From: a virus
Length of the DNA stretch: 20,588 bases
IMG/VR virus record: IMGVR_UViG_3300043436_002024
Span: 1-20,588 of that record
Direction: 5' to 3' (one strand)
This document shows, piece by piece, positions 602-20,588 of this stretch. The notes under the pieces are model-generated. The model was not told the DNA's origin, did not search any database, and worked only from the letters and a program-made list of their open reading frames with translations. The position numbers and the translations under genes are program-made. Positions within the stretch are counted from its first letter, which is position 1; each line of letters begins with the position of its first letter.

Positions 602-1087
602 ATGCCAGTATTAGATCCAAATGAAATTATGTTTACGGCCTTTGAACCAACCGTTCAGAACCGTTTCATCATGTATATTGACGGTATACCTTCATTTATG
701 ATTAAAAGTGCAACTGCACCAAACATCAACTTAAACGAAGTTAAAATCGACCATATTAACGTTTACCGTAAGATTAAAGGTAAAGCTGAGTGGCAAGATA
801 TGACTTTGAACTTATATAACCCAATCTCTCCTTCCGGTCAACAAGCTGTAATGGAGTGGGTTCGTTTATCACATGAATCAGTAACTGGACGTGACGGTTA
901 TTCTGACTTCTATAAGAAAGACTTAAACTTATCAATCCTAGGTCCAGTAGGCGACGTAGTATCAGAGTGGATTATTAAAGGAGCTTTCGTTAAGACATCG
1001 AATTTCGGTTCTTACGACTGGTCTAACCAAGATGCTATCACAATTGAATTACAAATTGGAATGGATTACTGTATCCTTAACTACTAA
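602..1087 (+). CDS. Tail tube protein, T4 gp19-like
   Basis: This is the predicted major inner tail tube subunit of a contractile tail, which stacks as hexameric rings inside the sheath. Its 161 aa are close to the 163 aa of T4 gp19. The gp19-like fold is suggested by the N-terminal NRFIMYIDGIPSFMIKSAT, the following VYRKIKGKAEWQDMTL strand region, and the C-terminal FGSYDWSNQDAITIELQIG strand. All four Arg codons are CGT, whereas neighbouring tail genes use almost only AGA; this fits a very highly expressed structural gene. The ATG follows an A-rich stretch (cagagaataaa) with no Shine-Dalgarno. A strong terminator 18 nt downstream closes the transcript. The family call is from recognised sequence pattern, not a search. 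Confidence 0.88.
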   Translation: MPVLDPNEIMFTAFEPTVQNRFIMYIDGIPSFMIKSATAPNINLNEVKIDHINVYRKIKGKAEWQDMTLNLYNPISPSGQQAVMEWVRLSHESVTGRDGYSDFYKKDLNLSILGPVGDVVSEWIIKGAFVKTSNFGSYDWSNQDAITIELQIGMDYCILNY

Positions 1088-1542: not shown

Positions 1543-2295
1543 ATGGCAGAAAAGTTCACACTTCCTACAGAGATGATTGAATTACCTTCAGAAGGTAAAG
1601 TTTACGACTTAACTAATCCCCTTTCTTCTGGTACTATTGAAATGAAGTACATGACAGCAAGAGAGGAAGACATCCTTACAAACGTTAACCTATTAAGACA
1701 AGGTGTAGCAATCGAAAAAATGTTGCAATCCATTATTAAATCCCCTATTAAGTACGAAGACTTACTGTTAGGCGATAGAAACTCATTATTAATTGCAGCT
1801 CGTATCTTAGCTTACGGTTCTGCTTATAGTTTCGAGTATTACGACTCAGAGTCAGAGACTAAAGAGATTATTAATATTGATTTAAACGAATTAAAGAATA
1901 AAGAAGTAGATCATTCTTTATATACTAATAAAAACGAATTTACATACGTTCTACCTCACTCTAAAAACACTATAACTTTTAAGTTACTTACAGTAGGCGA
2001 CGAGAAAGCAATTGAAGCCGAAGCAAAAGGTATGAAAAAGGCTAATATTGCTGTAGGAGAGGTTACATCTCGCTTAAAACATCAGATCTTATCTATAAAC
2101 GGTAATTATGAACGAAAAGACGTTAGAGATTTTGTAGATAACTACTTAATCGCTAAAGATTCTAATCCACTACGATCCTATATTACAAGTATATCACCCG
2201 ATATCGACCTTACAATCAATTTTACCTTATCAAACGGTAAAGAAATCACACAAAGTTTGCCATTAACGGCGGAATTTTTTTTTCCCGGGACCTGA
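1543..2295 (+). CDS. Baseplate hub / tail assembly chaperone, T4 gp26-like (zero-frame product)
   Basis: The 250-aa zero-frame product resembles the T4 gp26 baseplate family in its N-terminal half: an ELPSEGKVYDL strand near residues 13-23, TIEMKYMTAREEDIL near 31-45, and a helical LLLGDRNSLLIAARILAYG near 74-92. Related proteins often carry a Cys-rich knuckle after this helix; here only SFEYYDSESETK is present. The zero frame ends PGT-stop just after a run of nine T. The next frame continues the protein sensibly for about 90 residues. The gene sits directly before the tape measure, where lambda-type phages place the frameshifted G/GT chaperone pair. A chaperone role with two products is therefore likely. 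The start is ATG in the context agattATGgca, with no Shine-Dalgarno. Confidence 0.75.
   Translation: MAEKFTLPTEMIELPSEGKVYDLTNPLSSGTIEMKYMTAREEDILTNVNLLRQGVAIEKMLQSIIKSPIKYEDLLLGDRNSLLIAARILAYGSAYSFEYYDSESETKEIINIDLNELKNKEVDHSLYTNKNEFTYVLPHSKNTITFKLLTVGDEKAIEAEAKGMKKANIAVGEVTSRLKHQILSINGNYERKDVRDFVDNYLIAKDSNPLRSYITSISPDIDLTINFTLSNGKEITQSLPLTAEFFFPGT
2275..2284 (+). other. Putative frameshift site (T9-CCC)
   Basis: In the zero frame the codons are TTT TTT TTT CCC GGG ACC TGA. A +1 slip at TTT-C or CCC-G, or a -2 slip on the T run, moves the ribosome into the frame that stays open to 2554. The +1 product would be 336 aa and the -2 product 337 aa. RNA polymerase slippage on T9 or an indel error would give the same reading. 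A T8 tract would fuse the frames with no slip. Confidence 0.7.
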
Positions 2296-2554
2296 GTACA
2301 GACAAATCTATAAAAGAGAAGTTTTTGAGCTTACTTACCACGGTGGAGGAGGTTTTTCATGGTCTGAAGTCATGCAAATGCCTATCCGTGAGAGAAGGCT
2401 CAATATACAGTTCATTAATGAACACCTAGAAAAGCTTCAAGAAATTCGAAGTGACCAACAAACGGTAACCGCTAACAAGCCTCTAACTACTAAGCCTAAT
2501 ATTAAGGCTGCAAACGATACTCCCACCTATACATCTAAGGTAAAAAGGAAGTAA
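2282..2554 (+). CDS. Frameshift extension of the gp26-like chaperone (T-like domain)
   Basis: This frame has no good start of its own but reads straight on from the gp26-like gene: FPGPEYRQIYKREVFELTYH, then a GGGGFSWSEV turn, MPIRERR, a helix to about LEKLQEIRSDQ, and a Lys/Thr-rich, likely disordered tail ending KVKRK. A Gly-Gly-Phe turn followed by a Met-Pro-x-x-x-Arg-Arg helix is familiar from small proteins encoded just before phage tape measures. Residues upstream of the first ATG in this frame (2366 or 2372) are clearly protein-like, so internal initiation would discard conserved-looking sequence. I read it as the C-terminal half of a two-frame chaperone, analogous to lambda gpT within gpGT. 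A separate short protein starting at 2372 is the alternative. Confidence 0.65.
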   Translation, partial: FPGPEYRQIYKREVFELTYHGGGGFSWSEVMQMPIRERRLNIQFINEHLEKLQEIRSDQQTVTANKPLTTKPNIKAANDTPTYTSKVKRK

Positions 2555-2587: not shown

Positions 2588-4870
2588 ATGGCTACACGTA
2601 ATAATCCACAAGATACTCAAGATTTAGAAAATGCAAGACAGCAGACTGGTGCTATAGATGAACAAGCTACTAGTTTAAGCAATGTCTTAAGCTTAAAAAT
2701 GCAAGCCAATAAAGCTGCAAGAGAAGAGCTTGATCTTAGAGGTAAGATAGCTAAACTAGGACAGGAAGAAGCTAGAAATGCTATAGATTATAAAAATGTC
2801 ACAAATGCTATTAAGGAAGCTCAAAAACAACTTATAGTAGCACAAGCTTCAGGAAATAGAAGTAGAACAAGAGATCTTAAAGCAGAAATTTTAGCAGCAC
2901 AGCGAGTACAGGAAGAACAAAAAAAGACAGCAGGCGGTGCTTTAATGGCTATAACCTTAGAGGCTAGAAATAAGAAAATTGCATTACAAGCCGAAAGGCA
3001 GTTGATTAAAGATATTAATAAAGAAAGAGGTATTGGAGCTAAGTTAACAGATCTATTTAGAACAAAAGAAGCAAAACAGAGATCAATAGATATAGCACGT
3101 GCGAAAGTAGGCGGCGGCACAAATACAGGGCCAGGAACTGCTTCGAGTAAAGGCTTAGTAGACTCTTTTAAAGAAAGTAAACTAGGACAAGGTTTATCAG
3201 GAGCAATGGGCGGCCTAGTTGCAGGTGCTAAAGCAGCGATGGGCCCGATAAAGGAATTGGGTAATCAAATGAAGGCAGGATTAACATCTTCTTTAGCAGG
3301 AGCAGCTAATCTACTTACTGGTGAAGATTACGGAATGGGAGGCGGTAAAGCTAATGCATCTGGTGCGACTAGTATTTTAGGAGGCTTGAGTAGTATATTA
3401 AAAACAATTCCTCTTGTAGGAGGTATACTAGGTGGCGTAGTGGATATGTTTAAAGCTATGCTTGATGCTGTTTTAGGTGTAGAGCAAGCTAACTTTAGAG
3501 TAGGAAGAGCATTAAATATTTCTGCTGGAGCAGCTGACAATATGAGAGGTCAGTTTGATAAAATTGCAGCGTCTAGCGATAATATAGTAGTTAACTCTAC
3601 TAGAATGTTACAATCTCAAATAGAGATTAGTAAGCAGCTAGGTACCAATAAACAGTTAAGTGCTGATATTCTAGTAAACGACGTAAAATTAAGAGATGTT
3701 TTAGGTTTAGAGGCAGAATCAAGACAGAAAATTGCTGAGTCATCTATTGTAACAGGTAGAAATGCAGCTAAACTAACTCAAGGTATAATAGGCACGGTAG
3801 GTGCTTTTAATAAATTAGTAGGAACCAGTTTTAAGTTTAATGATATTATAGGAGAAGCTTCAAAGATGAGCGGTGTAATGGGATTAACATTTGCTAAGTA
3901 CCCAGAAAAGCTTACTAAAGCTATTCTCTCAGTAAAAACTCTTGGATTTGATTTAAAGCAATTAGATAGTACAGCAGAAAGTTTTTTAGACTTCGAAGGA
4001 AGTATTTCTAAAGAGATGGAAGCGCAGGTATTGACAGGTAAGGAAATGAACCTTACAGCTGCAAGAGAGGCTGCTTTAAATAACGATAATGCAAAGCTTG
4101 CATCAGAGATTACCAAGAATGTAGGTGATGCAAACACCTACTTAAAGATGAATAGAATCCAACAAGAGGCAATTGCACAGTCTGTTGGTATGTCGAGAGA
4201 TAGTCTTGCAGATGTTTTAAAGAAGCAAGAAATGTATTCTAAGCTAGGCGCTACAGACGTAGCTACCTTTAATAAAAAAATAGAGTTATTAGAAAAGCAA
4301 GGTAAGACGCAGGAGCAAATTAGCGCTATGATCGGTAAAGACGCTTATAATACCTACACACAGGTAAGTACAGCAGAAAAGTTATCTGAAGTAATGGAGA
4401 GAATTAAAAAAACTTTCGTAGACTTCTTAAGAAACTCAGGACTGTTTGAATTTATTACCGATCCGGTAAAAATAAATAACTTTATTAAAGGAATGGCCGA
4501 TAAACTTGCAAGTACGATTAGTATGATTGGCGATATCATAGCGACTATGCTTGAAGGTGTTAGCCACTTACCTTTTACAGATACAGACAAGTGGCAGGGA
4601 ATGGCTGCATCAGTTAGAATGGGATCAGAAGGCTTGTCTACTAGTATCAGAGCTACTACAAACTCTCTCGGAGGTGCTCCTGCAGGGTCTATCAGCAGTA
4701 ATGTCGAAAAAGGAACTAAACAAGAAAACAGCTACAAAGCAATATCATCTACTACTAATGCAGGAGCTGAAAAACCTATTCAAAACAATATCTATGTGAC
4801 GGTAGACGAAACAGCTATAGCTAAAGCTTCTACAAAAAATATGCATCTCATTCCAGGTCAAACTAAGTGA
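2588..4870 (+). CDS. Tail tape measure protein
   Basis: The 760-aa protein is the largest helical gene of the tail run and directly follows the frameshifted chaperone, the diagnostic tape-measure position. Residues 1-175 are charged and heptad-like (coiled coil; Ala, Glu, Lys, Gln rich). Residues 185-300 are Gly/Ala/Ser rich and hydrophobic, with a probable membrane-active segment around 262-297 (GGLSSILKTIPLVGGILGGV). Residues 300-600 are mainly helical. A second amphipathic/hydrophobic region lies at about 607-657, and the tail past 690 is Ser/Thr rich. Tape measures run inside the tube, set tail length and are ejected toward the host membrane. The common rule of about 0.15 nm per residue would suggest a tail near 110 nm. 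Arg codons are nearly all AGA. Sequence similarity is not the basis; composition and position are. Confidence 0.85.
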   Translation: MATRNNPQDTQDLENARQQTGAIDEQATSLSNVLSLKMQANKAAREELDLRGKIAKLGQEEARNAIDYKNVTNAIKEAQKQLIVAQASGNRSRTRDLKAEILAAQRVQEEQKKTAGGALMAITLEARNKKIALQAERQLIKDINKERGIGAKLTDLFRTKEAKQRSIDIARAKVGGGTNTGPGTASSKGLVDSFKESKLGQGLSGAMGGLVAGAKAAMGPIKELGNQMKAGLTSSLAGAANLLTGEDYGMGGGKANASGATSILGGLSSILKTIPLVGGILGGVVDMFKAMLDAVLGVEQANFRVGRALNISAGAADNMRGQFDKIAASSDNIVVNSTRMLQSQIEISKQLGTNKQLSADILVNDVKLRDVLGLEAESRQKIAESSIVTGRNAAKLTQGIIGTVGAFNKLVGTSFKFNDIIGEASKMSGVMGLTFAKYPEKLTKAILSVKTLGFDLKQLDSTAESFLDFEGSISKEMEAQVLTGKEMNLTAAREAALNNDNAKLASEITKNVGDANTYLKMNRIQQEAIAQSVGMSRDSLADVLKKQEMYSKLGATDVATFNKKIELLEKQGKTQEQISAMIGKDAYNTYTQVSTAEKLSEVMERIKKTFVDFLRNSGLFEFITDPVKINNFIKGMADKLASTISMIGDIIATMLEGVSHLPFTDTDKWQGMAASVRMGSEGLSTSIRATTNSLGGAPAGSISSNVEKGTKQENSYKAISSTTNAGAEKPIQNNIYVTVDETAIAKASTKNMHLIPGQTK

Positions 4871-7057: not shown

Positions 7058-7366
7058 ATGCAATCAAGATATCAAAACATACCGACTACTAAGCTAAACG
7101 CAACAGGAAGTACTTACTATGAAACTAATACGTACCCTGAAATACAGCCAACTAATAACGATTATTATGTTATTACAACTGTAGATGATAGATTAGATTT
7201 AATAGCTCTTGATTTTTACCAAGATTCAAGTCTATGGTGGATTATTGCATCAGCAAACGCATTACCAGGTGATTCTATTTACCCTCCTATCGGAGTACAG
7301 TTAAGAATTCCTACTGACATAACGACGATTTTAAGTAATTATAATTTAATAAATAATGGCTATTGA
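7058..7366 (+). CDS. Baseplate wedge protein, gp53-like with LysM-type fold
   Basis: The 102-aa protein has the small LysM-like module seen in T4 gp53 and related baseplate proteins. About residues 36-60 read YYVITTVDDRLDLIALDFYQ, then SSLWWIIASANAL (58-69) and a closing PPIGVQLRIP turn and strand (76-85). The pattern of a D-R-L-D-x-I-A helix, a WW-I-I-A helix and an L-R-I-P strand is very characteristic. It likely links hub and wedge parts of the baseplate. It is shorter than T4 gp53 (196 aa), so only the core module is kept. The gene overlaps the hub ORF by 11 nt, implying translational coupling. Confidence 0.8.
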   Translation: MQSRYQNIPTTKLNATGSTYYETNTYPEIQPTNNDYYVITTVDDRLDLIALDFYQDSSLWWIIASANALPGDSIYPPIGVQLRIPTDITTILSNYNLINNGY

Positions 7367-10300
7367 TAGTAACGTAAAGTTATCCAATGTTATAGGAGCT
7401 CCATTTAGCGATTATGTTTTGTTACAACTTTACCAAAGAGCTGCACATAATAGTACGCTTAATAGATCAAACGAAGAGGTTTTATTTTTAGCTAATAAAA
7501 CAGCGTGGGCACGACTTGTATCTTCTGTTAACATTACTAACGATACACTTGGATTAGTTTATAAAGACTTAGGAGTAAATTATAGCACGCCAGATGGCTT
7601 AGCAAAGAATTGGATACTAGAGGCAGGTACCTCTAAACAAAAAGGAAACGGAATCGAACTAAGGTACGGCATCGGTCCAGACGGAGCATACGGACTAGGG
7701 GGCACAGATGAATTAGGATACAGACCAATGCCCGGATTAACTTCAGTTCAAATAGAAACCACAGGGCGTCTAGGATCTCTAAGACAAGCCACAATTCAAT
7801 TTAAGGTTTGGAACATGGACCAACTAGATGTAGTTGAAGCTCTCTATTTTAGACTAGGGTATTCAATGTTACTTGAGTGGGGACATACACAGTATTTTGA
7901 TAATAAAGGCGGATTCGAACGTATTGCTTACGGAATTAACGATCCATTTAAGCCTCAAAGGAGAAAAGAACAAATACAGCAAGAGATTGCATTTAAAGCT
8001 CGAAATAGTTTCGGTAATTACGACGGTATGTTAGGGGTCGTCTCTAACTTTACCTGGGCTATGAATCAAGATGCAGGATATGATTGTACTGTTAAGTTAG
8101 TAGGATTGGGAGCTGTAATGGATTCTATGAGGATTAACCAGTCATACAAACTTCCTGAAGGAACATTAAAGCAGTACAAAAAAGATAAAGATGCTTTAGC
8201 TCGGCTAGCTGAAGAACAAGCAGCCCTAAAAAAACAACTGGAGTTCTTAAAAAACAATCCGCCGGTTGTTGTTGCCGGTAGTGCTGCATCTACAGGAACA
8301 CCACCTCCTCCGACACCTAAAACTATAGAAGAACTGTATCAAAGGTACGTAAATTACGACGGATACAAAGGAACTTTTGAAGAGTTTAGAAATACTTCAA
8401 CCGGGTTTGCTATCCCTCGATGGCCTTTCCCGGCTAACTTTAATACAGCAACAAAAACACCTGAAAGCTTTTTTTCATACTACGCTCCTTTTAAAAATTC
8501 AAGCTATGTAGCTTCTGCACAGAGCTTTGTAATAAGCAACTATCAAGGACTTTATTTAAATATAAGCGGTGCAGGAGGGTTTAAAAGAGTGCCTCTTAAC
8601 GATCCAAGTACAATATTAGGGATCAATGTAGCTACATTAGATGAAGCTGCAAGATCCGGAATTTTCGACGGAATATACAGTAATTCAACTTTTAGATACG
8701 GGTTATCAGAGGTTAATGCGGAAGTAGCAAAGGGAAATATTCCAAAACCCTACGGACAATTTGGGATAAGTAAAATTTTCGATCTTGGTGCTCGTTTTAC
8801 TCGAACCGGTGGCGGTCCAAATGGCGCAGGATCACCGGCCTATCTACCGTTAACTAGTCCGTTAGTAATAGGAACCGACACATTCCCTTCAACTCCTATA
8901 AGCTTTACCGTACCTGTAAAGACTACTGTTAAAGATTACGATACTACTTTTCAGATTACTGCAAAAATTAACTCGGATCCAAAAGATTTATATTTTCAAC
9001 CGTCTAGACAGACAGTAATTGATGCACTAGATTTAGCATTAAAAAATCCTTCTTTTGGAATAAGTAATGTAAGAATTAGTTCTCCTTTTCTTTCTAGAAT
9101 TCAAATAGCGGGAGACTTTAATGTTACAGGCGTTGAAGTACCGTATAGTGGACCAGCAGATAAGAAAGCTCAAGTAGTAGCTAGTAATAACGACGCTAAT
9201 GCAAGAAATAACGGAGAATCAAGAGTAGTACCTTTTAACTTCACCTTTACAACAGACAATCCAGGATTTATTAGTTCAGTTGGTGCAGTAGCACCTCCTT
9301 CTACACCCGCTAAAACAGAAACAGGAACCGGTAATACCGGAGATACAGGTGGAACTGTAAATAAAGCTAGCACTGAACAGCAAGATGCAGCATCAGGCTT
9401 TGCATCGGCGTTACAGGCTATGTTAATTACCGTACAAGCTTCTGCACAAGCTAAAAGAGCTAATAGCGGCAAGTCTTACCTAATGGTAGATATTAGCGAG
9501 GCGACAAGTAAGTTTTTCCAAGAAGGTATTATGAACGGAATTCTAGATACAAAAGGTGTTCCTAGTAAGATCCCTAATCCTACTACGTCAGAGTTTAACC
9601 TACTTCAATATGCAGCCAAAGGATTCAACAGTCAGTTAATGATCGACCCTACCCTGTATAACGACGTACTTTCAGTGCAATTTGATAAACTATGTAAAGC
9701 TTTTATAGTAGCTTACAACCAAGGAGGAGCTGATGCCGAATCTACTAAGTTACGAGCGCCAGTGTATATTTCATTTGGATATCTACTAGCTTTCTTAAAT
9801 AATATGTGTTTAATTTACGATTCACCGGAGTCTAAGTTACCGACAAATAATAATCCGGCTACAGGCACTCCAAAACGTCCGTACGTCTATATAGATTTTA
9901 ATCCAGAGACTAATTTTTGCTTAACTTCCCCGCAACAACTATCGATCGATCCTACTACCTGTTTAATTTCATTTCAAGCAAATCAAACCGACTATAAGAC
10001 TATCTTTCCTGAAGATATAATAAAAAGCTGGAGTAATAAAAAAGACGGACCTCTTTTCGATCCTGGTTCAGGAGTTAACGCAATTTCAAGCGAATTAAAC
10101 CGAGCGGGATTTTCTTTTAAAGGAGAAAATGCTTATCAAGGTAAGATAATGAACGTAATGTTAAACATCGATTACTTACTTGGATTAATAACAAGCTTTA
10201 CAGGATCAGATCCTGAACATGCCGTTAGGTTAGAGGCTTTCTTACAGAAAATTCTAGCAGATGTTAATAAAGCATTAGGCAATACTAATAGTTTTAGAGT

Positions 10301-11840
10301 AGCTTATAGAGACGATTCAAATACCGTACAGATTCAAGACGACCAGTGGATACCAAGCCTGGTAAAAGAGACTAATATGCTTCAAGCAAGCGTATATAAC
10401 TCTAAATTAACCGAAATAGGTACAGGAAAGCTTTCAGGACTAATACCCGTTTCTAGCGATCCAAAAGAACTACCAGTAGCAGGACAATTAAGCTTAGCTA
10501 GACAGTTTCAGTTAAGATCTGTAATGTCTACTAAACTTGCAAGTATGATAGCAATATCTGCACAAGCAGCAACAGGATCAGTTAACGCAACAGACCATTC
10601 CTCCCTTAGCTACTTAAATCAGAATTTCCAAGATAGGTATAAGCCTTATATACAAGATGCTTCTAACGGTAATGCAGGTACGAATGTTAATACTAAAAAT
10701 AACGAACCGAGCAACGATCAAAAAGCAGCTCAAATGTTTAATACCCATGTTACTACTATCTACTCTAACCTTCTTCTTAACCCAGATTATATCGACCTCA
10801 CTAAAAACTACTATATTGAGAGAATGTCTAAGGTTAAATCAGGAGATCCGATCGTATCTGCAGCTCCTTTTATTCCTGCTGAGTTAGAAATGACCTTAGA
10901 CGGTATTAGCGGTATTATAATGGGCAATGCCTTTACCGTACCGCAAGATAGGTTACCTTTATCTTTAAGAGGTAAAAACGGACTTGCAAAGATAGCTTTC
11001 ATCGTTACTGGCCTTACTCACACAGTTCAAAACAATGAGTGGTTGACTAAGATAAAAGGGCAAATGATTAAATTAAGAGGAAAAGCTGAAATAGCAAAAG
11101 CTGCAGATATTGTAGGTAAGATAATTGATTACGGTGCTGATTCTCTACCGTCTACTAGCGGAGGAACCGGTGGAGGAGCTAGCGGAGGAACTGATTATCA
11201 ACTTTCAAGTTACGGAGGGCCTGTCAAAATCGGCAGTATTACAGTTTGTCCAGGACAGTATCCAGGAGCAGGCAATAAGTACTCTTGTGCTCGTCAAGTA
11301 AAAACTATAATGACTCAAGAAGTCTTCGATAAGCAATACGGATATACGTTTGTAAAAAATAAATCGGATATTAATTTAAATAAAGCAGGCTTGACTCCTT
11401 TAACAGAGTCAGAAATCGACAAGACAATTATGAAGGAAAAAAATCATTTTGATCAAGGAACTATGCCAAGTCCCGTACAAAACTTCGTAATACACCATAC
11501 CGCTGGACGCGGAACTGCTAAGGGCGTTGTCGGCACGTTTCAAAACAGAGGGTATCCTGCACAGTATATAATTGATAGAGACGGTATAATACACCAGTAC
11601 ATGCCAAACGGCGCATTTGCATGGCATGCAGGAAGTTACAATAGACGCGCTATGGGAGTAGAAGTAATAGGTGACAACGATAAAGACATAACTAAGAAAC
11701 AGATTGAAGCAGCAGTACGTCTTGCACAGTACCTAGGCTTTAGTAGAGATCAAATTATAGGACATGGACAAGTGCCTGGTGCAGATAAAGCAGCAGATGA
11801 AGGTAAAACTATTACGGACTATATAAAAACTTTAGTGTAG
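7356..11840 (+). CDS. Baseplate hub fused to C-terminal peptidoglycan amidase
   Basis: The 1494-aa protein is modular. Residues about 120-260 form a gp27-like hub segment: GLTSVQIETTGRLGSLRQAT, an LDVVEALYFRLGY helix, and MLLEWGHTQYFDNKG. A short coiled coil (about 268-300) and a Pro-rich linker (about 313-322) follow. Residues 330-640 and 700-1230 are further hub or insert regions, separated by a Gly/Thr linker near 650-672. The last hub part includes PAELEMTLDGISGI and an IAFIVTGLTHTV strand. After a Gly-rich linker (about 1265-1280) comes a zinc amidase (about 1375-1494, Amidase_2/PGRP type): IHHTAG with His1380, AWHAG with His1424, GVEVIGD, and GHGQVPGADKAADEG with His1470, Lys1478 and Asp1481. 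His1380, His1470 and Asp1481 are the likely zinc ligands. It should cut the MurNAc-L-Ala bond during injection. T4 instead uses a separate gp5 lysozyme on gp27. Confidence 0.85.
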   Translation: MAIDSNVKLSNVIGAPFSDYVLLQLYQRAAHNSTLNRSNEEVLFLANKTAWARLVSSVNITNDTLGLVYKDLGVNYSTPDGLAKNWILEAGTSKQKGNGIELRYGIGPDGAYGLGGTDELGYRPMPGLTSVQIETTGRLGSLRQATIQFKVWNMDQLDVVEALYFRLGYSMLLEWGHTQYFDNKGGFERIAYGINDPFKPQRRKEQIQQEIAFKARNSFGNYDGMLGVVSNFTWAMNQDAGYDCTVKLVGLGAVMDSMRINQSYKLPEGTLKQYKKDKDALARLAEEQAALKKQLEFLKNNPPVVVAGSAASTGTPPPPTPKTIEELYQRYVNYDGYKGTFEEFRNTSTGFAIPRWPFPANFNTATKTPESFFSYYAPFKNSSYVASAQSFVISNYQGLYLNISGAGGFKRVPLNDPSTILGINVATLDEAARSGIFDGIYSNSTFRYGLSEVNAEVAKGNIPKPYGQFGISKIFDLGARFTRTGGGPNGAGSPAYLPLTSPLVIGTDTFPSTPISFTVPVKTTVKDYDTTFQITAKINSDPKDLYFQPSRQTVIDALDLALKNPSFGISNVRISSPFLSRIQIAGDFNVTGVEVPYSGPADKKAQVVASNNDANARNNGESRVVPFNFTFTTDNPGFISSVGAVAPPSTPAKTETGTGNTGDTGGTVNKASTEQQDAASGFASALQAMLITVQASAQAKRANSGKSYLMVDISEATSKFFQEGIMNGILDTKGVPSKIPNPTTSEFNLLQYAAKGFNSQLMIDPTLYNDVLSVQFDKLCKAFIVAYNQGGADAESTKLRAPVYISFGYLLAFLNNMCLIYDSPESKLPTNNNPATGTPKRPYVYIDFNPETNFCLTSPQQLSIDPTTCLISFQANQTDYKTIFPEDIIKSWSNKKDGPLFDPGSGVNAISSELNRAGFSFKGENAYQGKIMNVMLNIDYLLGLITSFTGSDPEHAVRLEAFLQKILADVNKALGNTNSFRVAYRDDSNTVQIQDDQWIPSLVKETNMLQASVYNSKLTEIGTGKLSGLIPVSSDPKELPVAGQLSLARQFQLRSVMSTKLASMIAISAQAATGSVNATDHSSLSYLNQNFQDRYKPYIQDASNGNAGTNVNTKNNEPSNDQKAAQMFNTHVTTIYSNLLLNPDYIDLTKNYYIERMSKVKSGDPIVSAAPFIPAELEMTLDGISGIIMGNAFTVPQDRLPLSLRGKNGLAKIAFIVTGLTHTVQNNEWLTKIKGQMIKLRGKAEIAKAADIVGKIIDYGADSLPSTSGGTGGGASGGTDYQLSSYGGPVKIGSITVCPGQYPGAGNKYSCARQVKTIMTQEVFDKQYGYTFVKNKSDINLNKAGLTPLTESEIDKTIMKEKNHFDQGTMPSPVQNFVIHHTAGRGTAKGVVGTFQNRGYPAQYIIDRDGIIHQYMPNGAFAWHAGSYNRRAMGVEVIGDNDKDITKKQIEAAVRLAQYLGFSRDQIIGHGQVPGADKAADEGKTITDYIKTLV

Positions 11841-14350: not shown

Positions 14351-15160
14351 ATGGCAATGGACCTTAGTGCGATTAAGTCGAAACTTAGCTCGCTACAAAA
14401 CCAAAAGTCAGGCGGTCAAAAAAGAGACATGTCTTTGATTTTATGGAAACCTACTGTGGGTAAACACAGCGTTCGTATCGTTCCTGCAACATGGGACAGA
14501 ACAAATCCTTTTAAAGAGATACTAGTACATTACGGTATTGGTAACCGTACTATGATTTCATTAGTTAACTTCGGTGAAAAAGATCCAATCGTTGAATTTG
14601 CTAAGCAATTAGCTACAGCAGGGGATAAGGAAAACTGGGTTATGTCTAAGAAGTTAGAACCTAAGATGCGTGTATTCGCTCCTGTCATCGTTAGAGGTGA
14701 AGAAGAGAAGGGCGTACGCTTATGGGAGTTTGGTAAGCAAATTTATGCTGAATTATTATCACTAGCCGACGATCCTGATGTAGGAGATTACACAGATGTA
14801 ATTCAAGGCCGTGATATTACGATTGAAACTACCGATGCAGCAACTAACGGTACCGGTTATAATCAATCTAAAGTACGTGTCCGTACTAAAACTACTCCTT
14901 TATCAGAAGATGCAACAGAAGTTGATAAGTGGTTAAACAATCAACCAGAGGTATTCACTATCTTTAAGAAATATTCTTACGATGAGATGAAAGAATCTTT
15001 GTTAAGTTGGTTACACCCTGAAGCAGCTACTGACGAACCAGCAGCTCCTGCAGCACCTGTAGTAGAAGCACCAGCTCCTGCTAATAAACCAGCATCATTT
15101 GCTTTAAACGCTAAACCTAAAGCAAGCATTGACGACGAGTTTGACGAATTATTTAAATAA
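14351..15160 (+). CDS. Single-stranded DNA-binding protein, T4 gp32-like
   Basis: The 269-aa protein resembles T4 gp32 in layout. A basic N-terminal segment for cooperative binding (residues 5-25) precedes the DNA-binding core starting near MSLILWKPTVGKHSVRIVP (27-45), then HYGIGNRTMISLVNFGEKDP and VIVRGEEEKGVRLWEFGKQI. A Pro/Ala-rich flexible linker (about 228-249) leads to an acidic tip, DDEFDELF (261-268), the usual docking site for replication partners. There are no cysteines at all, so the zinc ribbon of T4 gp32 (His64, Cys77, Cys87, Cys90) is missing. Of ten Arg codons seven are CGT/CGC, unlike the AGA-rich neighbours, which suggests high expression. It has its own promoter. It coats unwound template and recruits UvsX, helicase and polymerase. 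Confidence 0.85.
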   Translation: MAMDLSAIKSKLSSLQNQKSGGQKRDMSLILWKPTVGKHSVRIVPATWDRTNPFKEILVHYGIGNRTMISLVNFGEKDPIVEFAKQLATAGDKENWVMSKKLEPKMRVFAPVIVRGEEEKGVRLWEFGKQIYAELLSLADDPDVGDYTDVIQGRDITIETTDAATNGTGYNQSKVRVRTKTTPLSEDATEVDKWLNNQPEVFTIFKKYSYDEMKESLLSWLHPEAATDEPAAPAAPVVEAPAPANKPASFALNAKPKASIDDEFDELFK

Positions 15161-15168
15161 ACAAATAC

Positions 15169-16245
15169 ATGGCAAAAGGAACTAAAGCTTCTCTTAATGA
15201 GAGTATAGCTGGTGCCCTAAAGGGTACCTTTAATCTAGATAGCTTCAAAGAAGCAAAGAACTTATCTAGTACATCGATTAAGATGAAAGAACAAAAATGG
15301 ATACCTTTGTCAAAAGCCTTTCAAGACTGTTTATCTATACCTGGCATCCCACAAGGCCATATTACACTACTCCGCGGTCACTCTGACACCGGTAAAACAA
15401 CAGCTCTATTAGAAGCAGCAGTAAGCGCCCAGAAAATGGGCGTCTTACCTGTTTTTATTGTTACTGAGATGAAATGGAATTGGGAACATGCTAGGTTAAT
15501 GGGATTAGAGTATGAAGAAGTAGCTGATGAGAATGGAGTAGTTAAAGATTATAAAGGATTTTTCTTATATATTGATAGAGAAAGATTAAATAGTATTGAA
15601 GACGTAGGTGCATTTATTGCAGATTTATTAGACGAACAGAAAAACGGTAAGCTACCTTATGACTTATTATTTTTATGGGATTCAGTAGGTAGCATACCTT
15701 GTGAAATGTCTATAACATCTAATAAAAATAATAACGAATGGAATGCAGGTGCTATGTCTAAGACATTTGGCAACTTTATTAACCAAAAAATCGTATTATC
15801 ACGTAAAGAAAGTCAACCCTATACTAACTCAATGCTAGCAGTTAATAAGATCTGGGTAGCTAAAGCAGAAAACATCATGGCACAGCCTAAGATGAAAAAC
15901 AAGGGCGGAGATACGATGTATTTTGACGCTTCGTTAATTGTTACTTTTGGTAATGTTACTAGCTCAGGTACAAATAAAATTAAAGCTACAAAAAATGGCA
16001 AGGATGTAGAGTTTGCAAAGAGAACTAAAGTTAGCTGTGATAAGAATCACGTTAACGATGTTACTTCTGCCGGTAGAGTTATTATGACTGCACACGGTTT
16101 TATTGACGATACTAAGCAAGCTATTGATGCTTATAAGAAAGAGTATTCAAAGGGCTGGTTAAAGACTTTAGGTACCACTGACTTTGATGTAATAATAGAA
16201 ACCGACGACGACAGTAAGGATATTTTTGACGCTTCAGAAGAATAA
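15169..16245 (+). CDS. uvsX: RecA-like recombinase, UvsX
   Basis: The 358-aa protein is a RecA/Rad51-fold ATPase. It has a Walker A GHSDTGKT at residues 70-77, a likely catalytic Glu100 at the end of a FIVTE strand, and a Walker B DLLFLWD (165-171) followed by SVGSIP. A mobile-loop-like region follows near 183-197 (TSNKNNNEWNAGAMS). The C-terminus is very acidic (ETDDDSKDIFDASEE), as in T4 UvsX. It catalyses strand invasion for recombination-dependent replication and repair, on filaments formed with displacement of the gp32-like SSB encoded 8 nt upstream. Length is close to T4 UvsX (about 390 aa). No UvsY-like loader is visible here. The start is ATG with no Shine-Dalgarno (aacaaatac upstream). 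Confidence 0.9.
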   Translation: MAKGTKASLNESIAGALKGTFNLDSFKEAKNLSSTSIKMKEQKWIPLSKAFQDCLSIPGIPQGHITLLRGHSDTGKTTALLEAAVSAQKMGVLPVFIVTEMKWNWEHARLMGLEYEEVADENGVVKDYKGFFLYIDRERLNSIEDVGAFIADLLDEQKNGKLPYDLLFLWDSVGSIPCEMSITSNKNNNEWNAGAMSKTFGNFINQKIVLSRKESQPYTNSMLAVNKIWVAKAENIMAQPKMKNKGGDTMYFDASLIVTFGNVTSSGTNKIKATKNGKDVEFAKRTKVSCDKNHVNDVTSAGRVIMTAHGFIDDTKQAIDAYKKEYSKGWLKTLGTTDFDVIIETDDDSKDIFDASEE

Positions 16246-16249
16246 TAAC

Positions 16250-17287
16250 ATGAATACAGACTATAGAAAAATGTTTACGGAAATGGAAAATGAACCGGTA
16301 ACGACCCTGCATAAAGATAGCAGGGTTCTTATTGTGGATTCGTTAAATACGTTTTTACGTAGTTTTGTAGCAATACATCACGTAAATCCAGCAGGTAACC
16401 ACGTAGGAGGTTTGGGAGGTTTTTTAAAATCAGTCGGTGCTGTAATAAAACAAATACAACCTACAAGAGTTATTTTAGTTTTTGACGGTGTTGGTGGTTC
16501 AACAAATAAGAGATACCTATATCCAGAGTATAAAGCTAATAGACATATTACTAAAATATCAAACTGGGATGCATTCGATAATCAAGAAGAAGAATCTGAG
16601 TCTATTACCAATCAAATCTTACGTTTAGTTTCTTATTTAAAGTGCTTACCTGTTGATTTAATTGCAGTAGATAAAATTGAAGCAGATGACGTAATTGGAT
16701 ATCTTGCAACTAGGTTTCCCGAAAAGGTAACTATATTATCTACTGACCAAGATTACCTACAACTCGTATCAGATAAAATATCTGTATATTCACCAGTTAA
16801 GAAGATAATCTATGACCCGGCTAGAGTAGTAAAAGAGTACGGAATTACACCTCAAAACTTTTTAGTAGGTAAAGTTATACTAGGAGATAAAGGCGATAAT
16901 GTACCTGGGGTAAAAGGTATTGGTGCAAAGACATTAATAAAGCTTTTTCCTCAATTAAAAGAAGAAGAGAAATTTAGGCTCTTAGTTTTACTAGAACATG
17001 CAAAGCAAAATATAACAAAAAGTAAGCATTACGGTGATATACTTAATTTTTCTTACCAATTAGATATAAACAGAAAATTAATGGACTTACATAGTCCAAA
17101 TATACCTCAAGAAGATAAGATTACAATAGATCACCTATTAAATAACCCGAATAATGAATACGACCCTACTAGGTTTGTAAAATTATACAACGAAGACTTG
17201 TTAGGTAAGACTCTACTTAGTCCTCAAATATGGTTAAGTGAAACTTTTGCAAAATTAACACAGTATAAGTTGAAAGATCAAGAATAG
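16250..17287 (+). CDS. 5'-3' exonuclease / flap endonuclease (T4 RNase H type)
   Basis: This 345-aa nuclease has all the metal-binding motifs of the FEN/PolA 5'-nuclease family. These are LIVDSLNTFLRSF with Asp30, VILVFDG with Asp79, then KRYLYPEYKANR (arch base), IEADDVIGYLA with Glu144/Asp146/Asp147, ILSTDQDYLQLV with Asp166/Asp168, and GDKGDNVPGVKGIGAKT with Asp213/Asp216, leading into the helix-hairpin-helix. It should remove RNA primers and 5' flaps on the lagging strand, the role of T4 rnh. I choose the ATG at 16250, four bases after the uvsX stop, over an upstream TTG that would overlap uvsX. About 25 residues precede the first motif, more than usual, and a 7-bp hairpin lies in that stretch. 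The polymerase here lacks a 5'-nuclease domain, so this gene supplies it separately. Confidence 0.9.
   Translation: MNTDYRKMFTEMENEPVTTLHKDSRVLIVDSLNTFLRSFVAIHHVNPAGNHVGGLGGFLKSVGAVIKQIQPTRVILVFDGVGGSTNKRYLYPEYKANRHITKISNWDAFDNQEEESESITNQILRLVSYLKCLPVDLIAVDKIEADDVIGYLATRFPEKVTILSTDQDYLQLVSDKISVYSPVKKIIYDPARVVKEYGITPQNFLVGKVILGDKGDNVPGVKGIGAKTLIKLFPQLKEEEKFRLLVLLEHAKQNITKSKHYGDILNFSYQLDINRKLMDLHSPNIPQEDKITIDHLLNNPNNEYDPTRFVKLYNEDLLGKTLLSPQIWLSETFAKLTQYKLKDQE
16304..16326 (+). other. GC-rich hairpin at the start of the 5'-nuclease gene
   Basis: ACCCTGC (16304-16310) and GCAGGGT (16320-16326) pair perfectly around a 9-nt AT-rich loop, inside codons 19-26. It stands out in an AT-rich region. It lacks a proper T run, so it is not a clear terminator; it may slow translation or protect a processed mRNA end, or be chance. 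Confidence 0.4.
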
Positions 17288-17319
17288 TTTACTACATTAA
17301 AGAATAAAGAGAATTAGTT

Positions 17320-18696
17320 ATGGCAGTTTTAAATCAGTTGAATCAATACGGAGTAGGCTTTCAGGTAAAGGTGATGTCGAGCTTACTAAAGCATAAAGAA
17401 TTTTTACAAAATATACACGACATATTAGAAGAGGAGTATTTTGATAATCCAGCACATAAATGGATTGTAGAGGAAATCTTAAAATACCATTACAAGTACC
17501 ATACTACACCTTCTCTTGATGCATTACAGGTAGAGGTTAAAAAAATTGATAATGAGGTATTAAAAGTATCTGTTATCGAGCAATTAAAAGAAGCTTATAA
17601 AGCATCTAACGAAGATCAAGAGTATGTAGAGCAGGAGTTTGCTAACTTCTGTAAAAACCAGCAGTTAAAAAAAGCATTATTATCTTCAGTTGATTTATTA
17701 GAGAAAGGACAATACGATGACATTAGGTACTTAATCGATTCAGCATTAAAAGCTGGTATGGATAAAAATCTAGGTCATGAATACGAAAAAGATACTGAAT
17801 CTCGTTATAGAGCAGAAGATAGAAATCCTATACCAACACCTTGGCCTCATGTTAATGAATTATTACAAGGAGGATTAGGATCAGGCGATGTTGGAATTAT
17901 ATTTGGCAATCCAGGCGGAGGTAAGAGTTGGATGCTAACAGCCTTAGGTGCTATGCCTGTGTCATTAGGATATACTGTAGCTCACTATACCTTAGAGTTA
18001 TCAGAAGGGTATATGGGCAGAAGATACGATGCTACCTTTACAGGACTTAAAGTACAAGAATTAGGTTTACATAGAACAGAAGTAAATGAGATGATTGATA
18101 AACTTAAAGGAAAGTTAATCATTAAAGAATTCTCAATGGGTAAAGCATCTATATCAAGCATCGAAGCTCATATTCAAAAAATGACAGACCTTGGAACTAA
18201 GCCGGATCTAGTTATTATTGACTACGTAGATTTATTAAAATCAAAACGTAAATCTACTGATAGAAAGGATGAGATTGACGATATATACATTTCTACTAAA
18301 GCTCTAGCAAGGGATCTTAAACTTCCGATATGGACCGTATCTCAAGTAAATAGAGCTGGTGCAAAAGACGATGTGATTGAAGGAGATAAAGCAGCTGGTT
18401 CATATAATAAAGTTATGATTGCAGATTTTGCAATGTCTTTATCGAGAAAAAGGTTAGATAAGATGAACGGTACTGGAAGAGCACATATTATGAAGAATCG
18501 ATATGGCGGCGACGGTATGACGTATCCGGTAAAAATTAATACTGAAAACGGTAATATAGAAATTTTAGATAGAGAGATGGAGGAAGGGGAATTTACCGTA
18601 GAAAATGGTAATCAAGGACCTAAGGCTCCGACTACTAATTTTAGTGCAGAAGAGAGGAATTATTTGCAGCAAAGATTCTTTGAATTAGGAAAATAA
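17320..18696 (+). CDS. Replicative DNA helicase, DnaB/T4 gp41-like
   Basis: The 458-aa protein is a hexameric 5'-3' helicase of the DnaB/gp41 family. Residues 1-150 form the helical N-terminal domain that contacts primase. After a linker, VNELLQGGLGSGDVGIIFG opens the RecA-like motor. Walker A is GNPGGGKS (196-203), the catalytic Glu is in LELSEG (Glu226), Walker B is LVIIDYVDLL with Asp301, the sensor is SQVNRAG (Gln342), and the arginine-finger region is KNRYGGDG (Arg394). The acidic C-terminal tail has a plausible partner-binding role. It unwinds the fork with the SSB and polymerase encoded upstream. No primase (gp61) or loader (gp59) is in the window. It follows the 5' nuclease by 32 nt; the ATG context is agttATGgca, with only a weak agag upstream. 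Confidence 0.92.
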   Translation: MAVLNQLNQYGVGFQVKVMSSLLKHKEFLQNIHDILEEEYFDNPAHKWIVEEILKYHYKYHTTPSLDALQVEVKKIDNEVLKVSVIEQLKEAYKASNEDQEYVEQEFANFCKNQQLKKALLSSVDLLEKGQYDDIRYLIDSALKAGMDKNLGHEYEKDTESRYRAEDRNPIPTPWPHVNELLQGGLGSGDVGIIFGNPGGGKSWMLTALGAMPVSLGYTVAHYTLELSEGYMGRRYDATFTGLKVQELGLHRTEVNEMIDKLKGKLIIKEFSMGKASISSIEAHIQKMTDLGTKPDLVIIDYVDLLKSKRKSTDRKDEIDDIYISTKALARDLKLPIWTVSQVNRAGAKDDVIEGDKAAGSYNKVMIADFAMSLSRKRLDKMNGTGRAHIMKNRYGGDGMTYPVKINTENGNIEILDREMEEGEFTVENGNQGPKAPTTNFSAEERNYLQQRFFELGK

Positions 18697-18699
18697 TGC

Positions 18700-18706
18700 T
18701 ATTTAT
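18700..18706 (+). promoter_or_regulatory. TATTTAT motif ahead of the 70-aa ORF
   Basis: TATTTAT (context tgcTATTTATtac) lies 20 nt before the ATG at 18727. It matches core and spacing at 1543 and 2588. Unlike those it is in the replication region, which argues against a strictly late role. Confidence 0.25.
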
Positions 18707-18726
18707 TACTACAAAAGGTATTTAAT

Positions 18727-18939
18727 ATGAGTTTAACTGATTTATACAACGAAAAAAAGACAGCACTTGCGCCTCCTGCAAATCAAACCACCTATGAAGA
18801 GTTTGTATTTGAGATGGAAAAAGACGGTACTAACGATTTAGTAGAGAGAAATATGGTAGATCCTACCTTTAGACCTCCTGCTGCTGGAACCTCATACCTT
18901 GAGACAGTCTTCCAAGACGGTCTAAACAAAAACCTGTAA
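18727..18939 (+). CDS. Small hypothetical protein before the reductase
   Basis: I do not recognise this 70-aa acidic protein. It has a short N-terminal helix (LTDLYNEKKTAL), a Glu-rich middle (TYEEFVFEMEKDGTNDLVE) and a Pro-rich C-terminal part (DPTFRPPAAGTSYLETVFQ). It has no cysteine, so it is not a glutaredoxin-type partner of the reductase that follows. One of the few purine-rich sites that could act as a Shine-Dalgarno, AAAAGG, lies about 8 nt upstream. The reading frame is clean and co-directional with both neighbours. The function is unknown. Confidence 0.65.
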   Translation: MSLTDLYNEKKTALAPPANQTTYEEFVFEMEKDGTNDLVERNMVDPTFRPPAAGTSYLETVFQDGLNKNL

Positions 18940-19028
18940 ATTTAACTAATTAGGTTATAGACCTAACGACGGTGCTAAAACCCTCGAATGAATAACGTAT
19001 CTTTAAAATTATAAAAAACGACGAAAAA
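18940..19028 (+). other. 89-nt leader of the reductase gene with a hairpin
   Basis: This is the longest gap between genes after 1191. TTAGGT (18950-18955) pairs with ACCTAA (18961-18966) around a 5-nt loop, without a T run. TATCTTTA at 18998-19005 resembles a -7 box, but the best upstream partner (GGTGCT at 18971) is 23 nt away, not 20, so a promoter is doubtful. I see no B12-box. Confidence 0.35.
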
Positions 19029-20588
19029 ATGGACATTTCACAGAGCATTTTAAGCGACATTACGGTATATATGAAGTATGCCAAATTTAATCCCGAAGTA
19101 CAGAGAAGGGAAACATGGAAGGAGTTAGTGGATAGAAACAAAGCAATGCACTTGAAGAAATTTCCAAAGTTACAGAAAGAAATTGAAAATGCTTATCAGT
19201 ATGTTTACGATAGAAAAGCATTACCTTCAATGCGCTCTATGCAATTTGCAGGTAAACCTATTGAAATTAGCCCTAACCGTATCTACAACTGTGCTTATCT
19301 TCCAATTGATGATTGGAGAGCCTTTGGAGAAACGATGTTCTTATTATTAGGCGGTACTGGGGTTGGTTATTCAGTACAGAAGCATCACGTTGATCAATTA
19401 CCTGAAATTAGAAAACCAGATCCGAAGAAGACTAGACGTTTTTTAATTGGTGATTCTATTGAAGGATGGGCTGATGCAATAAAAGTACTAGTTAGATCTT
19501 ATTTTGAAGGTGGATCATCTCCAGCATTTGACTTTTCAGATATTAGAGCTAAAGGAGCTGCCCTAATTACTACAGGCGGTAAAGCACCTGGACCTCAACC
19601 ATTAAAAGAATGCTTAATTAAGATACAAGGTATTTTAGATAGCAAAGAAAATAACGATAAATTAACTTCTATTGAAGTACACGATATAGTTTGCCATATT
19701 GCAGATGCAGTATTAACAGGCGGTATTAGAAGAGCTGCTTTGATTAGCCTCTTTAGTGCGGATGACGATGATATGATTTCAGCTAAGTCAGGCGCATGGT
19801 GGGAACTTAACCCACAACGCGGAAGAGCTAATAATTCAGCAGTATTATTAAGAAATAAAGTAACTGAAGAATTTTTCTTCGGCTTGTGGGACAAAATTAA
19901 GGCAAGCGGTGCTGGTGAACCTGGCATTTACTTATCTAACGATAAAGATTGGGGAACTAATCCTTGTTGCGAAATTGCTTTACGTCCTTTCCAATTCTGT
20001 AACTTATGTGAAGTAAATGTTTCTGATGTTGTAGATCAAGATGACTTAAATGCAAGAGTTAAAGCTGCTGCATTTATTGGTACCTTACAAGCATCTTATA
20101 CTAGCTTCCATTATTTACGTCCAATATGGCAGAGAACAACTGAAAAAGATGCTTTAATAGGTGTAGGAATGACAGGTGTTGGTTCTGGTAAAGCTCAACA
20201 GTTAGATCTCAAACAAGCAACTAAGATTGTTAACGAAGAAAATGAGAGAGTAGCTAAATTATTAGGAATTAATAAAGCAGCTAGAACTACTACTGTAAAA
20301 CCTTCAGGAACTTCATCTCTTGCATTAGGAACTTCATCAGGAATTCATGCATGGCATAATGACTTTTATATTAGAAGAATTAGAGTAGGTAAAAATGAAC
20401 CTATATACACATACTTAGCAATCAATCATCCAGAGCTTATCGAAGACGAATATTTTAGACCTCACGATACAGCAGTTATCTCTGTACCACAAAAAGCTCC
20501 AGTAGGATCTATCCTAAGACATGAATCTGCTTTAGACTTACTTGAGAGAGTTAAGTATGTTTATCAAAACTGGGTTAAACCAGATCAT
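19029..20588 (+). CDS. Class II (adenosylcobalamin-dependent) ribonucleotide reductase, 3'-partial
   Basis: The gene starts at ATG 19029 and is open through the right edge (520 codons seen). It matches monomeric ribonucleoside-triphosphate reductase (RTPR type). Early signs are SMRSMQFAG (67-75), NCAYLPIDD with Cys88, the LLLGGTGVGYSVQKHHV loop (106-121) and TTGGKAPGPQPL (181-192). The active-site loop is NPCCEIALRPFQFCN, with Cys313 (thiyl radical site), Glu315 and Cys324. Cys313 to Cys324 has the same 11-residue step as Cys408 to Cys419 in the Lactobacillus leichmannii enzyme, and Cys88 would be the partner of Cys324. VKPSGTSSLALGTSSGIHAWH (424-443) is the phosphate-binding region. It makes dNTPs from host NTPs and depends on B12 but not on oxygen. 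About 200 further residues are expected beyond the window. No intein or intron interrupts the visible part. Confidence 0.9.
   Translation, partial: MDISQSILSDITVYMKYAKFNPEVQRRETWKELVDRNKAMHLKKFPKLQKEIENAYQYVYDRKALPSMRSMQFAGKPIEISPNRIYNCAYLPIDDWRAFGETMFLLLGGTGVGYSVQKHHVDQLPEIRKPDPKKTRRFLIGDSIEGWADAIKVLVRSYFEGGSSPAFDFSDIRAKGAALITTGGKAPGPQPLKECLIKIQGILDSKENNDKLTSIEVHDIVCHIADAVLTGGIRRAALISLFSADDDDMISAKSGAWWELNPQRGRANNSAVLLRNKVTEEFFFGLWDKIKASGAGEPGIYLSNDKDWGTNPCCEIALRPFQFCNLCEVNVSDVVDQDDLNARVKAAAFIGTLQASYTSFHYLRPIWQRTTEKDALIGVGMTGVGSGKAQQLDLKQATKIVNEENERVAKLLGINKAARTTTVKPSGTSSLALGTSSGIHAWHNDFYIRRIRVGKNEPIYTYLAINHPELIEDEYFRPHDTAVISVPQKAPVGSILRHESALDLLERVKYVYQNWVKPDH

Follow-up and report, generated by a model that had tools for sequence, protein, structure and literature searches.

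A single tail gene in the stretch of viral DNA analysed here (the window; 20,588 nucleotides, positions 1-20,588 of IMG/VR record IMGVR_UViG_3300043436_002024, a viral metagenomic contig) very probably encodes both a 250-aa short chaperone and a 336-aa long chaperone, the latter predicted to carry a C-terminal extension, by means of a programmed +1 ribosomal frameshift in which P-site tRNA-Phe slips at UUU_Y. The production of two tail-assembly chaperones from one gene is the best explanation of the data as a whole, with a chaperone function and a product ratio that we infer from the analysis. The original prediction, made from the DNA alone, had proposed a +1 or -2 frameshift yielding a two-product tail chaperone, and a programmed +1 shift with a short and a long product is now the best reading of a frame break that recurs in 113 of 123 clusters of related loci and in cultured phages. 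The prediction also withstood the refutations it had set for itself.

In the mechanism we propose, most ribosomes would stop at the TGA at 2293 and release the short form. A fraction would slip forward by one base with tRNA-Phe in the P site on a UUU of UUU_UUU_UUU_CCC, the tRNA re-pairing with UUU or UUC, and would then continue in the +1 frame (..FFF-PGPEYR..). Translation would end at the stop at 2554 and yield the long form, whose C-terminal domain is predicted to be helical. If the parallel with lambda G/GT holds, the tape measure protein may be coated by several short forms together with a few long ones, which would recruit tail tube subunits.

The position of the gene fits this proposal. 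It lies between the tail tube gene and the tape measure gene (Table 1), as is the case for two-product chaperones of the G/GT type. Flavobacterium phage immuto has annotated counterparts of both neighbours: its tail tube shares 64% identity with that of the window, and its tail tape measure protein is homologous to the window's (29% identity over 373 columns, E=8e-29), which bears out the earlier claim that the gene directly precedes the tape measure. The 0-frame protein scores 40.9 bits against the T4_baseplate model PF12322, above the curated cut-off of 24.5, and its PHROG match is a baseplate hub family. It was modelled by AlphaFold2 with a pLDDT of 92, and Foldseek matched this model to T4-like baseplate hub assembly proteins; a fold search of the PDB returned no significant match, with the HK97 chaperone 2ob9 reaching a Foldseek probability of only 0.21. 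Between the tail tube and chaperone genes, positions 1191-1505 encode a 104-aa hydrophobic protein for which a family search gave no convincing match.

Table 1. Features of the putative two-product chaperone locus in the window.
Feature	Position	Strand	Basis
Tail tube protein (gp19-like)	602..1087	+	PHROG 4542 tail tube protein, E=1e-22
Short tail-assembly chaperone (TAC-N / gp26-like), putative; 0-frame product, 250 aa	1543..2295	+	PF12322, PHROG 150
Candidate shift site UUU_UUU_UUU_CCC	2275..2286	+	UUU in the 0 frame with U or C as the next base in each of the 113 +1 clusters
+1-frame extension of 89 codons and a stop codon; putative C-terminal domain (TAC-NC / gp51-like) of the long form	2285..2554	+	
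Tape measure protein	2588..4870	+	Homologue of phage immuto tail tape measure

At the frame break, nine T residues (2275-2283) are followed by CCC (2284-2286) and GGG (2287-2289), and the 0-frame protein ends in ...AEFFFPGT*. The 0 frame had been described as closing four codons after the entire T9-CCC-GGG tract; a TGA does follow soon after, but it is the fourth codon after T9 itself (CCC GGG ACC TGA). The +1 frame is free of stops from 2267 to 2551 (95 codons in all, of which 89 follow the slip), in keeping with the roughly 90 residues predicted. It reads ..FFPGPEYRQIYKREVFELTYHGGGGFSWSEVMQMPIRER.. and encodes the protein FFPGPEYRQIYKREVFELTYHGGGGFSWSEVMQMPIRERRLNIQFINEHLEKLQE... The claim that this frame is protein-like upstream of its first ATG likewise stands: that ATG, at 2372, falls inside the domain, the conserved core begins before it, and no ATG, GTG or TTG was found between the upstream +1 stop and the core in either the window or its clade. 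When a profile built from 93 extensions, all from outside the window's clade, was searched against the six frames of the window, the sole significant match was this +1 open reading frame (E=2e-17); the profile also matched the proteins of five split-gene relatives discussed below (E ~5e-20 or better) and nothing else significantly. Comparison of the window with its close relatives counted 91/38/280 substitutions at positions 1, 2 and 3 of the +1-frame codons. Because of this profile match and this codon-position pattern, the extension is, judging from its sequence, not a chance open reading frame. Folded separately from the 0-frame part, it is predicted to form three helices (pLDDT 77), and a fold search with the predicted structure gave no significant match.

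The break is kept at the same place among relatives. Searching IMG/VR with the 0-frame protein returned 80 relatives and a second search with an alignment returned 80 more; together with cultured phages, this gave 167 loci that formed 123 clusters at 90% identity. An automatic frame table placed the extension in the +1 frame in 115 clusters, in the 0 frame in two and in the -1 frame in one, and left five without a call. Reading the junctions showed that five clusters (L020, L030, L109, L114 and L115) have two genes that start at separate ATGs, and the count after this reading is a +1-frame extension in 113 of 123 clusters, these being metagenomic clusters that are not independent of one another. 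Among the finished genomes, Flavobacterium phage immuto and Microcystis phage Mel-JY01 have the same break. Their annotations call the extension as separate small reading frames, which in immuto amounts to a 36-aa hypothetical protein, and existing annotation thus misses the long form. Two further cultured phages drew our attention: Xanthomonas phage XacN1 (L085:4730-4990) has a possible frame change of -1 appearance after its gp26-like gene, and Streptococcus phage GXN1 (L084:4690-5020) has one of +1 appearance at UUU_C, where a plausible start is also present. Neither extension was significant in a search with the 93-extension profile, and both were left out of the counts.

The sequence at the frame change follows a simple rule, in that every +1 cluster has a UUU in the 0 frame with U or C as the next base. 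The commonest site, TTT TTT TGG CCT, was tallied automatically in 68 clusters, with TTT TTT TTT CCC (the site of the window) and TTT TTT TAY CCT in 12 clusters each; others include TTC TTT TTT CCC, TTT CTT TGG/TAC, TTT CTT CTC and TTT CTA TTC. The tract thus ranges from T9-CCC through T7 and T6 down to T3-CTT/CTA, and the codon entering the A site is in each case a sense codon (CCC, UGG, UAY or CUN). Information content at the third bases of the two Phe codons is 1.66 and 1.93 bits, compared with less than 0.7 bits for most other third positions within the final 50 bases of the 0 frame. Outside the site, TTT accounts for about 81% of the Phe codons in these genes, versus 224 of 235 counts at the site, a tally that includes a few misassigned neighbours and clusters that are not independent. 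All three UUU codons of the window permit the +1 shift and give the same peptide, FFFPGPEY. At sites with no T-run longer than three, +1 re-pairing is still possible, by tRNA-Phe moving from UUU to UUC or by tRNA-Leu moving from CUU to UUU. We found no strong and conserved downstream hairpin over the family (mean fold z -0.8; window +0.9), no Shine-Dalgarno-like stimulator at the sites and no match in an Rfam search. The efficiency of the shift could therefore be low, since no strong stimulator was found. A -1 shift at a heptamer of the form X_XXY_YYZ was set aside for this clade, its extension being in the +1 frame.

How the two frames are joined could in principle be explained differently. 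Slippage of RNA polymerase on the T9 run would generate T8 transcripts in which both frames are fused. Runs of nine are within the range able to slip, and T9 is kept throughout the window's clade of 12 clusters. A long A or T run is not present at every site, however: the frame change persists in eight clusters with no T-run longer than three (TTTCTTTGG, TTTCTTCTC, TTTCTATTC), among them the isolate phage immuto (AGC TTT CTT TGG) and the huge-phage locus L086 (AAC TTT CTA TTC), and in nine others with T6. Because of those eight clusters, slippage is disfavoured as the family-wide mechanism, and we consider it an improbable account of the window. The T9 of the window is long enough that polymerase slippage could add to the shift, although we infer from the sites that the event in this phage is ribosomal rather than transcriptional. 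The -2 ribosomal shift left open in the original prediction would produce a long form with one extra Phe (FFFFPGPEY). Perfect -2 re-pairing is available on U-runs of six to nine, and phage Mu is said to use such a shift (PMC5009743). The sites without a T-run longer than three argue the other way, as UUU_CUU_UGG, UUU_CUU_CUC and UUU_CUA_UUC permit +1 but not -2 re-pairing, and a -2 event is thus very unlikely.

There is a similarly slim chance that the extension is a separate protein, made from an internal start or by re-initiation after the stop. Five relatives are arranged in this way, with an ATG of their own, and the annotators of immuto and Mel-JY01 called small separate reading frames. 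This explanation would nevertheless leave the conservation of UUU_Y unaccounted for. No stop interrupts the +1 reading frame across the slip site in any of the 113 +1 clusters; in 57 of these no start codon occurs anywhere in it, and a start with a Shine-Dalgarno-like site occurs in only six. For the window's clade, separate initiation was rejected on the absence of a start before the conserved core. Finally, there is a negligible likelihood that the break reflects sequencing error or a decayed gene, for although homopolymers are error-prone and the window is a metagenomic contig, the break recurs across 113 clusters drawn from many metagenomes, as well as in the finished genomes of isolates, with differing tract sequences and purifying selection on both frames. 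This indicates that it is real, and its conservation rules out sequencing error.

The relatives with two genes merit closer consideration, as the original prediction had taken relatives encoding two properly initiated proteins to speak against programmed slippage. Such relatives do exist, but they number only five, belong to one subclade and in four of five cases have a TTT run partly replaced by TTC, so that the Phe codons are broken up. Their two genes have their own ATGs and lie in mixed frames, as expected if both parts must be made in another way, and the second protein has a short extra N-terminus ahead of a PLFPGPEYR-like start. In an unrooted tree of the 0-frame protein, the subclade adjoins the clade of the window and is mixed with +1 members, and two to four changes of state between the split and +1 forms are needed. 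This arrangement suggests that the +1 form is old and that splitting came later, the direction not being provable from an unrooted tree. The split relatives also show that covalent joining of the two parts is not needed in every phage.

T4 gp26 and gp51, both hub assembly chaperones, match PF12322, the same model as the 0-frame protein, gp51 being a paralogue of gp26 that is extended at its C-terminus. T4 therefore also has a short and a long form, but from two genes and with no frameshift, whereas the window has one gene. In T4-like cyanophages the short form is likewise followed by an out-of-frame extension, as in the gp26 and small gp51 of S-RIM8 (Kyanoviridae), but the extension lies in the -1 frame after an invariant U_UUU_UUC (69 of 70 clusters) rather than in the +1 frame after UUU_Y. 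The small annotated gp51 of S-RIM8 begins inside this -1-frame extension, and gp51-type -1 extensions after a U_UUU_UUC ending gp26 are also seen in the wider set of T4-like cyanophages, Aeromonas phage 65.2 and phage SRB7757 (L186-L265, L099-L101). Profile comparisons gave probabilities of 99% for the cyanophage fused profile against full-length T4 gp51, 97% for the cyanophage extension profile against the gp51 C-terminus and 93% for the window-type fusion against the cyanophage fusion profile. The window-type extension matched cyanophage extensions at 72-82% (E ~1e-5; 82% against a set of cyanophage extensions plus gp51), and its direct match to the gp51 C-terminus was weak (8%). The extension of the window may thus be linked to the C-terminus of T4 gp51 by way of its cyanophage homologues. 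The -1 sites would also explain the published oddity of cyanophage gp51 being without the first 200 residues while resembling the C-terminus (PMC3037559). We therefore think it likely that PF12322 has arrived at four solutions for making a short and a long form: +1 at UUU_Y (the window's clade), -1 at U_UUU_UUC (cyanophages and Aeromonas phage 65), duplication (T4) and a two-gene split.

Tailed phages are known to make two-product chaperones by shifts of -1, -2 or +1 (PMC5009743). The window shares with lambda G/GT and other such systems a place before the tape measure and a short and a frameshifted long product; the shift in lambda is -1 and that in the window +1, and comparison with lambda-type chaperones gave no significant sequence or fold match. 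A parallel, judged from its description, is the chaperone of the haloarchaeal myovirus HSTV-2, likewise a tail-chaperone gene of a contractile-tailed virus, which is reported as very likely using +1 (PMC5009743). The +1 sites of E. coli RF2 and Yersinia YopN-TyeA similarly involve a one-base P-site slip on CUU_U or UUU_Y (PMC5009743), but RF2 depends on a stop codon together with an internal Shine-Dalgarno sequence, whereas the A-site codon in the window's clade is a sense codon.

In a 2016 review, the G/GT frameshift is described as conserved among long-tailed phages, with T4 as the exception (PMC5009743). According to papers citing Vladimirov, Gautam and Davidson (Virology 2022), that study identified the chaperone genes of T4-like phages (PMC10885494, PMC12846349); one of these describes a short gene and a long fused gene in some T4-like phages (PMC10885494) and the other poly-T -1 sites in short-form genes (PMC12846349). 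The assignment of T4 gp26 and gp51 as short and long chaperones, and the cyanophage -1 site, thus appear to have been published earlier (Vladimirov 2022). The link between T4-type and lambda-type chaperones put forward in the original prediction is accordingly right, but as a novelty it appears, from these citing papers, to have been anticipated. What seems to be new is the +1 form in a large T4-type clade, which none of the sources consulted describes.

The gp26/gp51 family would thus include a large T4-type clade with a frame change in the direction opposite to the usual one, and with its +1, -1, duplicated and split forms PF12322 offers a natural comparison set for the gain, switch and loss of recoding. 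If our reading is correct, few known sets of natural +1 sites with a sense A-site codon are as large as that of the +1 clade. The site itself is simple, consisting of UUU_Y with a sense A-site codon and lacking a clear stimulator. The hosts include Flavobacterium and Microcystis, which fall outside the usual E. coli models. Elsewhere in the window, the tail gene region includes a 1494-aa protein (7356-11840) with a C-terminal N-acetylmuramoyl-L-alanine amidase domain (residues 1372-1479), and the tail genes are followed at 14351-20588 by T4-type replication genes, namely those for a gp32-like single-strand binding protein, a RecA-like protein, a 5'-3' exonuclease, a DnaB-type helicase and ribonucleotide reductase.
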